Below, piece by piece: positions 18,633-22,448 of a stretch of 64,000 nucleotides of DNA (positions are counted from its first letter, which is position 1; each line of letters starts with the position of its first letter). The DNA is from an uncultured Alphaproteobacteria bacterium (lineage in GTDB: Bacteria; Pseudomonadota; Alphaproteobacteria; Rhodobacterales; Rhodobacteraceae), in the NCBI GenBank assembly GCA_902596605.1, contig CACJUU010000008.1, forward strand, positions 32,670 through 96,669, read 5' to 3'. A program made the translations under genes and the position numbers. Below the pieces are notes generated by a model. The model did no database searches and was not told the origin of the DNA. It was given only the letters and a program-made list of their open reading frames with translations.

Positions 18633-18663
18633 AAAGTATTAAAAATTATATTTTTAATACTTT
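18633..18663. promoter_or_regulatory. Perfect 13-bp inverted repeat upstream of ald
   Basis: AAAGTATTAAAAA and its exact reverse complement TTTTTAATACTTT are separated by TTATA. G-U and C-G pairs can extend the stem if transcribed toward ald. It sits in the divergent gap between the M16 peptidase and ald, so it is not at the end of any gene and cannot be a terminator for either. A TATAAT-like box lies at 18695-18700, between it and the ald start. The likely role is an operator or leader structure for ald; Lrp/AsnC-type regulators control ald in other bacteria, which is known of the family and not shown here. Confidence 0.5.
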
Positions 18664-18718
18664 GGGTAACACTCTGGATTGTGATACTCTAATATATAAT
18701 TTTTTTTGGGGGATTTTA

Positions 18719-19816
18719 ATGATAATTGGGGTGCCTAAGGAAATTAAACCAAGTGAATATAGGGTTGGTGTCACACCCTCAACTGCTTCACGATTAATCG
18801 AAGAAAATCATACTGTACTTGTTCAAAAAAACAGCGGTGAAGGCATTGGTGCTACTGATGACGATTATATAAAAGTGGGAGTAAAAGTTGTTGATGGACC
18901 TGAAGAGATTTTTAAAAACAGTAATATGATCGTGAAAGTAAAAGAACCTCAAGAATCTGAATGGAAAATGCTCAAAGAAGAACAAATTCTTTTCACTTAC
19001 CTTCATTTAGCTGCCGATCCAAAACAAGCAAAAGGCTTAATAGATGCAAGGTGCCACGCAATTGCATATGAAACAATCACTGATAACAAAGGCGCATTAC
19101 CCCTTTTAGCACCTATGAGTGAAATTGCTGGAAGATTAGCAGTTTTTGAAGGTGCTTATCATTTAAAAAAGACCTGTGGAGGACCTGGCTCTTTAATATC
19201 TGGTGTTCCAGGTGTAAAGCCTGCGAAGGTCATTATTTTAGGAGGCGGTATGGTTGGAACAAATGCAGCTCAAATGGCAATTGGAGTGGGGGCCGACGTT
19301 ACAATCTTCGATAAGTCTATAGAAAGATTAAGATACCTAAATGATATCTTCGGTAACTCAGCTAAAGTTCTTTACTCGGAACCTCTGGAGCTTAAAAGCC
19401 AACTGGTTGACGCAGATCTAGTGATAGGTGCAGTATTGATACCCGGTGCAAGCGCTCCAAAACTAATTGAAAAGTCATTTCTATCAAAAATGAAAAATAA
19501 TTCTGTTTTAGTTGATGTTGCCATTGATCAAGGTGGATGCTTTGAAACATCGAAACCAACAACGCACCAAAATCCGATCTACTATGAAGACGGTGTTTTA
19601 CATTACTGTGTGGCAAATATGCCAGGCTCTGTGCCTAAGACAGCTTCTTATGCTCTTAATAATGTTACAGCTAACTACATTTCAAAAATAGCAAGTTTGG
19701 GACTAGAGGCTTTAGAACAAGATCAAAATTTAGCGATGGGATTGAATGTCTCAAAGGGACAGATCACTCATTCTGCGGTAAAGGAAGCTTTGTTGGAAAC
19801 CGTAAGCTATAACTAA
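18719..19816 (+). CDS. ald: Alanine dehydrogenase
   Basis: A 365-residue NAD-dependent alanine dehydrogenase: alanine to pyruvate plus ammonia, reversible. The N-terminus 'MIIGVPKEIKPSEYRVGVTP' is diagnostic; a conserved catalytic His lies in 'FTYLHLAADP' and the NAD fold in 'IILGGGMVGTNAAQMAIGVG'. 'VLVDVAIDQGGCFETSKPTTH' is the conserved C-terminal stretch. The ORF track starts 19 codons earlier, but GGGGGATTTTA immediately before the ATG at 18719 and the family N-terminus fix the start. A 13-bp inverted repeat lies upstream. In taurine users this enzyme regenerates pruvate consumed by taurine:pyruvate aminotransferase; that link is inferred from proximity to xsc, because no such aminotransferase is visible. 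Confidence 0.94.
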   Translation: MIIGVPKEIKPSEYRVGVTPSTASRLIEENHTVLVQKNSGEGIGATDDDYIKVGVKVVDGPEEIFKNSNMIVKVKEPQESEWKMLKEEQILFTYLHLAADPKQAKGLIDARCHAIAYETITDNKGALPLLAPMSEIAGRLAVFEGAYHLKKTCGGPGSLISGVPGVKPAKVIILGGGMVGTNAAQMAIGVGADVTIFDKSIERLRYLNDIFGNSAKVLYSEPLELKSQLVDADLVIGAVLIPGASAPKLIEKSFLSKMKNNSVLVDVAIDQGGCFETSKPTTHQNPIYYEDGVLHYCVANMPGSVPKTASYALNNVTANYISKIASLGLEALEQDQNLAMGLNVSKGQITHSAVKEALLETVSYN

Positions 19817-19833: not shown

Positions 19834-20799
19834 ATGAATGTGGATTTAGTTAACACTAAAGTTTTACTTTTAGGGTATACAGGCTATATCGGCACAACAC
19901 TTGCGAAAGTTCTGTTAGAAAAAAAAATTCAGCTTATTTGCCCAATACGAAACAAAAAGAATCTTGAGAAAAAGAAAAATATTGTTTTTGTAGATATCTC
20001 TCAAATTGAAAGTTTTCTCGAAACATTGAGCGTAAAACCAACTACTATTATTTCCTGTATTGCTTCAAGAAAAGGAGGCATTTCGGATTCATGGAATGTG
20101 GAATACTCTCTAAATAAATTCTTTTTGGATTTATCCAAAAGGGTAGGCATAAAGAGATTTATTCTTATATCTGCAATATGTGTTCAGAAGCCTAGTCTAG
20201 AATTTCAAAAGGCGAAATTAGCGTTTGAACATCTTTTACAAAATTCAAGTCTTGAATATGAAATAATTAGACCCACAGCTTTTTTCAAAAGTCTCTCTGG
20301 ACAGATTGATAGAGTTAAAAAAGGAAAAAGCTTTTTAATTTTTGGTAATGGCCAATTAACATCTTGCAAGCCTATCTCCGCACGTGACTTAAGCAAATTC
20401 ATCATCCCGCTTGTTACCAGGAGGCAGTCTGAGAACAAAATTCATATAATAGGTGGCCCAGGCCCACCCATCTCCCCTAAACGCCAAGCTGAGTTATTAT
20501 TTGAGCTATGCAAAAAAGAAAAAAAAATTACTCACATATCTCCTAAGCTTTTCCTTGTGATCACCTATGCTCTCATCCCCTTATCAATAGTCTCAAAAAA
20601 AATACGAGATTTAAGGGAATTCCTTAAGATTGCTTATTACTACGCGACGGAGTCTATGTTATTCTGGGATGAAAAAATTGGTTCTTATAGCTCCAATAAA
20701 ACACCAGAATACGGTAATGAATCGTTAGAAGAATATTACAAAAAAATACTTAAGAACGATGTGGTTTATAAAGAATTAAAGGATCAAAAACTATTTTAG
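19834..20799 (+). CDS. bciA: Divinyl (proto)chlorophyllide 8-vinyl reductase, BciA/DVR type
   Basis: A 321-residue atypical SDR that closely follows the plant/bacterial DVR-BciA family, which reduces the 8-vinyl group of divinyl chlorophyllides with NADPH. It has the nucleotide fold 'VLLLGYTGYIGTTLAKVLL' and the family-specific stretches 'SCIASRKGGISDSWNVEY', 'ISAICVQKPSLEFQKAKLAFE', 'IIRPTAFFKSLSGQIDRVKK', 'CKPISARDLSKFI' and 'YYATESMLFWDE', all near copies of what I know of Arabidopsis DVR. Length is normal for bacterial members. It follows ald by 17 bases. No other bacteriochlorophyll gene lies in the window, so either the photosynthesis genes are elsewhere or the enzyme has another role. 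The family assignment is strong; the physiological role is inference. Confidence 0.8.
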   Translation: MNVDLVNTKVLLLGYTGYIGTTLAKVLLEKKIQLICPIRNKKNLEKKKNIVFVDISQIESFLETLSVKPTTIISCIASRKGGISDSWNVEYSLNKFFLDLSKRVGIKRFILISAICVQKPSLEFQKAKLAFEHLLQNSSLEYEIIRPTAFFKSLSGQIDRVKKGKSFLIFGNGQLTSCKPISARDLSKFIIPLVTRRQSENKIHIIGGPGPPISPKRQAELLFELCKKEKKITHISPKLFLVITYALIPLSIVSKKIRDLREFLKIAYYYATESMLFWDEKIGSYSSNKTPEYGNESLEEYYKKILKNDVVYKELKDQKLF

Positions 20800-20843
20800 A
20801 TAAAAATATTAATCATTTTGCTGGCGACTTTGACTACATTGTT

Positions 20844-22448
20844 GTGGGTGCGGGCTCTTCTGGTTCTGCAATAGCATACAGATTAGCGCAAGAAAACAAT
20901 ATGAAAGTACTATTAATTGAATATGGGGGACAAAACAGATCGGTATTTATAGATATGCCAGCGGCTCTATCCTACCCTATGAATTTGGAAAAATATAACT
21001 GGGGTTACAGAGCAGAACCAGAACCAAACTTATATGGAAGATCATTAATCTGTCCGAGAGGGAAAGGTTTAGGTGGATCATCTTCAATCAATGGAATGAT
21101 TTATGTACGAGGTCATCCTCAAGATTTCGATAATTGGAGCACTAAAGGGGCCTTAAGTTGGTCATTTGCAGATGTTCTTCCTTACTTCAAAAAAATGGAG
21201 TGTTGTGAAAGTCGACAATCAGCTTGGAGAGGAAAAAATGGCCCTATCCGTATAAAAACTGCAGAACAAAAAAACGTATTGCATAAAGTTTTTTCAGATG
21301 CAGCTATACAATGTGGTTACTCTTTTACTGAAGATTATAATGGCTATAAGCAAGAAGGCATTGGAGCTGCAGAAATGACCGTATATAAAGGCAAGAGATG
21401 GTCTACTGCCCAAGGCTATTTGAAAAATATAACAAAACAAAAAAACATTTGCATAAAGACTTCATGTTTAGTTGATAAGCTATTGTTTTTAAATAATAAA
21501 TGCAATGGAATCATTTTTAAAAGAAAATCTGAAACTTTTTCTGCGCAATGTAAAAGAGGTGTCATATTAGCCGCTGGTCCCATTGGCAATCCCTGTATTT
21601 TACAGAGATCTGGAATAGGAGATTTAAAACATATTGCGGGCATTGGTATAAAACCTTTTCTGGATTTAAAAGGTGTTGGAAATAATTTACAGGATCATCT
21701 TGAGTTATATTTTCAAGTGAAATGCACTCAACCCGTTACTCTTTTTAGAAATACTAGCTTATTTTCAAAAGCTAAAATTTTCTTACAATGGTATATGTTC
21801 AAAAAAGGGTTAGGAATATCAAATCAATTTGAAACTCTTGGCTTTCTTAAAACAGATAGACAACAAAAGTACCCTAACCTGCAGTATCACTTTTTACCTC
21901 TAGCAATAAATTATGACGGATCATCACCACACAGAGGGGATGGCTTTCAGTTCCATGTAGGAACAATGCGGTCAAAATCTAGGGGATTTGTTGCCATTAA
22001 GAATGCAGATCCACAAAACTCTCCTACTATAAAGTTTAACTATCTTAGTCACTCTGATGACCTAAAGGATTTTCGAAATGCAATTAGAATAACAAGAAAT
22101 ATTCTAAGTCAGCCTGCTTTTAAAGATTATGCGGGCGAAGAAATTCAACCGAAGGCAACGTTGAAGTCGAATAGCGAGCTGGATGAATTCATAAAGTTGA
22201 GCGTTGAGTCAGCGTTTCACCCTTGCGGCACCTGCAAAATGGGGGATCCTGCTGATAAAGAAACGGTTGTGACCCCCGAATGCAAAGTAAATGGTGTAGA
22301 AAATCTTTTTTGTGCAGATTCTTCAATTTTTCCTTCGATAACAAATGGCAACCTCAACGCCCCGAGCATTATGGTAGGCGAAAAAGCAGTAGACCATATT
22401 TTGAATAAGCCTATATTACCAAAGGAGAATTTAGTTCCTTATAACTAG
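20844..22448 (+). CDS. GMC-family oxidoreductase (choline dehydrogenase-like), start uncertain
   Basis: A flavoprotein alcohol/choline dehydrogenase-like enzyme of at least 534 residues. Visible are the FAD turn 'GAGSSGSAIAYRL', the GMC signature 'GKGLGGSSSINGMIYVRGH', the second signature 'AAGPIGNPCILQRSGIG', a catalytic His in 'SAFHPCGTCKMG' and Asn in 'NLNAPSIMVGEKA'. The track's GTG start falls inside the first FAD strand: in frame upstream the sequence reads 'NHFAGDFDYIVVGAGSSG', which belongs to the protein, but there is no ATG, GTG or TTG before the stop at 20769. ATT at 20793, ten bases after AAGGA, is a plausible start, giving about 551 residues. Substrate (choline, alcohol or other) is not determined; no BetB or BetI is adjacent. 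It lies just after bciA. Confidence 0.85.
   Translation: MGAGSSGSAIAYRLAQENNMKVLLIEYGGQNRSVFIDMPAALSYPMNLEKYNWGYRAEPEPNLYGRSLICPRGKGLGGSSSINGMIYVRGHPQDFDNWSTKGALSWSFADVLPYFKKMECCESRQSAWRGKNGPIRIKTAEQKNVLHKVFSDAAIQCGYSFTEDYNGYKQEGIGAAEMTVYKGKRWSTAQGYLKNITKQKNICIKTSCLVDKLLFLNNKCNGIIFKRKSETFSAQCKRGVILAAGPIGNPCILQRSGIGDLKHIAGIGIKPFLDLKGVGNNLQDHLELYFQVKCTQPVTLFRNTSLFSKAKIFLQWYMFKKGLGISNQFETLGFLKTDRQQKYPNLQYHFLPLAINYDGSSPHRGDGFQFHVGTMRSKSRGFVAIKNADPQNSPTIKFNYLSHSDDLKDFRNAIRITRNILSQPAFKDYAGEEIQPKATLKSNSELDEFIKLSVESAFHPCGTCKMGDPADKETVVTPECKVNGVENLFCADSSIFPSITNGNLNAPSIMVGEKAVDHILNKPILPKENLVPYN

Follow-up and report, generated by a model that had tools for sequence, protein, structure and literature searches.

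The window, meaning the whole stretch of 64,000 nucleotides analysed here, carries at 19834-20799 on the forward strand an intact and uninterrupted open reading frame that starts with ATG and ends with TAG. The gene, bciA, directly follows ald, as the original prediction had stated, and is itself followed by a gene for an oxidoreductase of the GMC type. The features of the locus are the following.

18662-19816, forward strand: ald, alanine dehydrogenase, with a probable start at ATG 18719; 17 bases 5′ of bciA and conserved as its neighbour within the genus only.
19834-20799, forward strand: bciA, predicted NADPH-dependent 8-vinyl (divinyl chlorophyllide a) reductase of 321 aa, assigned by homology, tree, invariant residues, dN/dS and AlphaFold model.
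19873-19893, forward strand: GxxGxxG nucleotide-binding motif of BciA (G14-Y-T-G17-Y-I-G20), its glycines invariant in the alignment.
20170-20229, forward strand: BciA signature block SAICVQKP...FQKAKLAFE, residues 113-132, located by pairwise comparison and alignment.
20844-22448, forward strand: choline-dehydrogenase-like GMC oxidoreductase 3′ of bciA, called from a GTG, with a likely start at an ATT near 20793.

The agreement with the DVR/BciA family claimed for the full length of the protein holds under direct comparison. Over 98 % of its length the window protein is 40-42 % identical to the BciA of Rhodobacter and Chlorobiaceae, the two bacterial groups whose BciA enzymes have been proven, with E values between 1e-84 and 1e-91 against the proteins of Rhodobacter sp. 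CZR27, Rhodobacter viridis and Pelodictyon, compared with 24-27 % identity to the nearest non-BciA SDR paralogues. A tblastn search of plasmid records matched two entries of Agrobacterium as well as Rhodobacter sp. CZR27, the latter at E 1e-60 and covering 98 % of the query. A genome-wide scan found at least 537 relatives, the best 80 of which include Rhodobacterales, Erythrobacter, Luminiphilus, Burkholderiales, Chlorobiaceae and Gemmatimonas. The general models for the protein, NAD_binding_10 and Epimerase, are those of an NAD(P)H-binding atypical SDR. Because no BciA-specific Pfam or NCBIfam model was matched (NAD_binding_10 only), the assignment to BciA rests on direct comparison together with the tree. 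The reference proteins can themselves be anchored: BciA of R. sphaeroides and C. tepidum are 53 % identical (PMC3931815), and CZR27 and Pelodictyon BciA show the same value, which supports both as orthologues of the characterised enzymes.

Residues that are invariant among 37 diverse BciA proteins are all kept by the window protein. They comprise G14, G17 and G20, which form the GxxGxxG NAD(P)H-binding motif required for BciA (PMC3931815), together with R39, SAIC-Q-P (113-120), F124-Q-x-A-K128, KPIS (179-182) and YxxESML (270-276). If the positions are equivalent, F124-x3-K128 would stand in place of the YxxxK of classical SDRs. Tryptic peptides of A. marina BciA (PMC4836224) lend weak support, with GxxGxxG, SCxASR and RPTAFFK matching the query and the others not. 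The AlphaFold model (mean pLDDT 92) has the NAD(P)-binding fold of an extended or atypical SDR. Its Foldseek matches, namely NDUFA9-type subunits of complex I, epimerases and SimC7, express likeness at the level of the fold only. The ketoreductase SimC7 is also the best PDB profile match, and that search returned no solved BciA structure.

We placed the protein in a maximum-likelihood tree of 70 rows made up of BciA relatives and SDR paralogues. It groups with 64 other BciA rows in a 65-row clade with support 100/99, which a branch of length 1.97 separates from the outgroup, away from the SDR paralogues, so that the phylogeny proposed as a check puts it with BciA. Within this clade it belongs to a subclade of 17 rows (support 97/89) made up of BciA from marine picoplankton of the alpha-, beta- and gammaproteobacteria, which is sister to, and not nested inside, a 47-row clade with the Rhodobacter and Chlorobi proteins. 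Biased letter composition and some weak supports make the deep placement of the query within BciA unsure. The 17-row clade brings together loci from different classes, among them L073 and L109 (beta), L041, L040 and L049 (gamma) and marine alphaproteobacterial loci, hinting at either horizontal transfer or a composition artefact.

The genes for the remainder of the pathway are present in the same genome. The assembly comprises 1.97 Mb in 48 contigs and is 84 % complete; the window lies on contig C8, and the photosynthesis genes that were found lie on contig C1. Between positions 80000 and 140000 of C1 the order is acsF, puh, lhaA, bchM, L, H, B, N, F, ppaA, ppsR, bchG, bchP, idi, dxs, pufM, pufL, bchZ, Y, X, C, crtF, E, D, C, tspO, crtB, I, A, bchI, D, O, which reads as a complete photosynthesis gene cluster (crt/bch/puf/puh) of the Rhodobacterales type. 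All ten proteins tested (pufL, pufM, bchX, bchY, bchZ, bchC, bchL, bchF, bchP and acsF) score above curated NCBIfam cut-offs, and the remaining names in the cluster come from reading the sequence and the gene order. Among plasmid records, the closest proteins to PufM are those of Sulfitobacter and other members of the Roseobacter group, at 72 %. The original prediction had proposed a search of the genome for bchXYZ, bchG, pufLM and crt, and had offered as its first alternative a phototroph whose bch/puf cluster lies elsewhere; the cluster on C1 provides every one of these genes and bears that alternative out. With bch and puf genes in the genome and the protein grouped with BciA, neither of the two refuting outcomes named in the original prediction came about. 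Judged by its gene content, the host is predicted to be able to make bacteriochlorophyll and to photosynthesise. The assembly contains a single BciA copy and no match to either BciB (FrhB/FdhB domain, PF04432) or BchJ.

The location of bciA apart from this cluster is normal for the gene. The original prediction rightly places it outside any pigment operon, but this does not make the locus special: a recognisable photosynthesis gene occurs near bciA in only 6 of 74 loci from other lineages (flanks of up to 5 kb per side), a lower bound given that the queries came from the genome of the window at E 1e-15 and that some flanks end at contig ends. Thus bciA is usually unlinked to the photosynthesis cluster. 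The order ald-bciA-GMC was found in all loci read from the genus, which consists of marine single-cell genomes, and in none of the loci from other lineages.

Gene content across the class associates bciA closely with the reaction centre. In 385 genomes drawn evenly across the class, BciA is present in 13 and pufLM in 26, with 12 carrying both (hypergeometric P 6.5e-15). Within the genus, pufLM accompanies BciA in 12 of 16 genomes; the other four have a full bchX in two cases, a bchX fragment in one and only a BchL-like match in one. This near-exclusive co-occurrence speaks against the second alternative originally put forward, in which the gene was once a bciA, was relocated next to ald and today acts on a different substrate. 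Such a change of function could draw on the non-pigment surroundings of the gene, which keep one order throughout the genus, on an identity of only about 40 % to characterised lineages, and on the one class member (G272) that keeps bciA without pufLM or bchX. Against these points, the BciA-invariant residues are retained, the unlinked location is the norm for the gene, and, in a genome whose bch pathway is complete and which has no BciB, the window protein is the sole BciA-type 8-vinyl reductase. The G272 case is itself open to explanation by recent cluster loss or a missing contig. We therefore regard a relocated enzyme with a new substrate as very improbable and retain the reading of the gene as a working BciA.

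Two genomes depart individually from the joint presence of bciA and the photosynthesis genes. G272, which is 98 % complete, holds an intact bciA (G272:C4:158886-159887; L114:8887-9888) and gives no matches to pufLM, BchX or BchL. Around bciA, G272 is collinear with its phototrophic congener G171 (L115), which suggests that G272 either lost the photosynthesis cluster recently or is affected by an assembly gap or missing contig. In G416 (C1:4891548-4894871), bciA lies in two pieces about 2.3 kb apart with one stop codon each, and pufLM is still present. G416 is apparently a phototroph with a disrupted bciA, which would depend on another 8-vinyl reductase.

Six genomes of the genus (G002, G004, G006, G010, G013 and G018) contain neither bciA nor a true alanine dehydrogenase, and four of the six carry pufLM. 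A loss specific to bciA was considered for them and rejected: since true ald is missing as well, what is unassembled or, as a variable block, absent is the segment as a whole, and not bciA alone.

These six assemblies are one ground for suspecting that bciA is a dispensable, decaying relic and that COR (BchXYZ) carries out all 8-vinyl reduction. COR is indeed encoded in the genome, and an R. sphaeroides delta-bciA mutant still makes 8-ethyl bacteriochlorophyll (PMC4214422). The gene does not, however, behave as a decaying one: no full-length copy seen in the genus has an interrupted frame, and dN/dS between the window gene and its near relatives is 0.10-0.14, so bciA is under strong purifying selection. 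The six genomes without it are 64-77 % complete, and true ald is missing from them too. We give decay very little credence and keep to a functional bciA.

The start of the downstream GMC oxidoreductase gene is unusual. In all 19 genus loci read (window 20785-20860) there is no ATG or GTG ahead of the Rossmann motif, and the frame is open backwards into the end of bciA. Every one of the 19 carries an ATT about 9 bases behind an AAGGA, overlapping the stop codon of bciA (ATTTTAG); in the two most divergent lineages a TTG stands beside it. The pattern suggests that the conserved ATT is the likeliest GMC start, a rare initiation codon with translational coupling to bciA. Conservation of the ATT alone is no proof of this, because the triplet is also constrained by the Leu-Phe-stop codons of bciA. 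A wider proposal, that bciA of the genus is coupled in translation to the GMC oxidoreductase through this non-canonical ATT and that bacteriochlorophyll maturation is thereby co-expressed with alanine and choline/alcohol oxidation and not with the light-regulated cluster, is speculative and in our view rather unlikely. Operators of the PpsR type (TGTN12ACA) are absent upstream of ald, and the whole window has 13 against 14.3 expected by chance.

Taken together, we hold with high confidence that the gene, which lies apart from the photosynthesis cluster, encodes a functional BciA and that its host, a marine alphaproteobacterium with anoxygenic phototrophy, uses it for C8-vinyl reduction towards bacteriochlorophyll a. 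The chemistry of BciA and its use of NADPH have been described (PMC4214422, PMC3931815); the R. sphaeroides enzyme prefers chlorophyllide over protochlorophyllide, and COR can substitute for it (PMC4214422, PMC4432870). Substrate, cofactor, redundancy with COR and the aerobic lifestyle of the host are all read across from characterised relatives. By this analogy, NADPH would be bound by the N-terminal Rossmann domain and would pass its hydride to the C8-vinyl group of the substrate, divinyl chlorophyllide a or alternatively protochlorophyllide a, yielding the 8-ethyl product en route to bacteriochlorophyll a. COR, also encoded, probably makes this step partly redundant, so that BciA would be helpful and not strictly essential. 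An aerobic lifestyle is suggested by the presence of the AcsF oxidative cyclase.

The finding is ordinary, a known enzyme family in its usual unlinked location. Its practical value is that an isolated bciA on a contig can be used as a marker of phototrophs, as 12 of the 13 bciA-bearing genomes across the class carry pufLM. It also brings in a little-characterised BciA clade of marine picoplankton; the rest is routine annotation.

The closest known counterparts are the BciA proteins of Rhodobacter (R. sphaeroides rsp_3070 type; CZR27, L028; R. viridis, L102), which are homologous to the window protein over the full length and have its motif blocks but differ in being 40-42 % identical to it and in lying on another major branch of the tree. 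In Rhodobacter sp. CZR27 bciA is likewise apart from the photosynthesis genes, with sox and ben genes as its neighbours on a replicon of 860 kb. Chlorobiaceae BciA (C. tepidum type; Pelodictyon luteolum, L067) is 41 % identical over the full length and belongs to a different phylum. BciB, the F420-dehydrogenase-like protein of most cyanobacteria, catalyses the same reaction (PMC4836224) but is unrelated to BciA, and the window protein, an SDR of the NAD_binding_10 kind, is not of the BciB type. COR, which can perform the 8-vinyl step in Rhodobacter (PMC4432870), is a nitrogenase-like complex whose genes lie in the C1 cluster of this genome.
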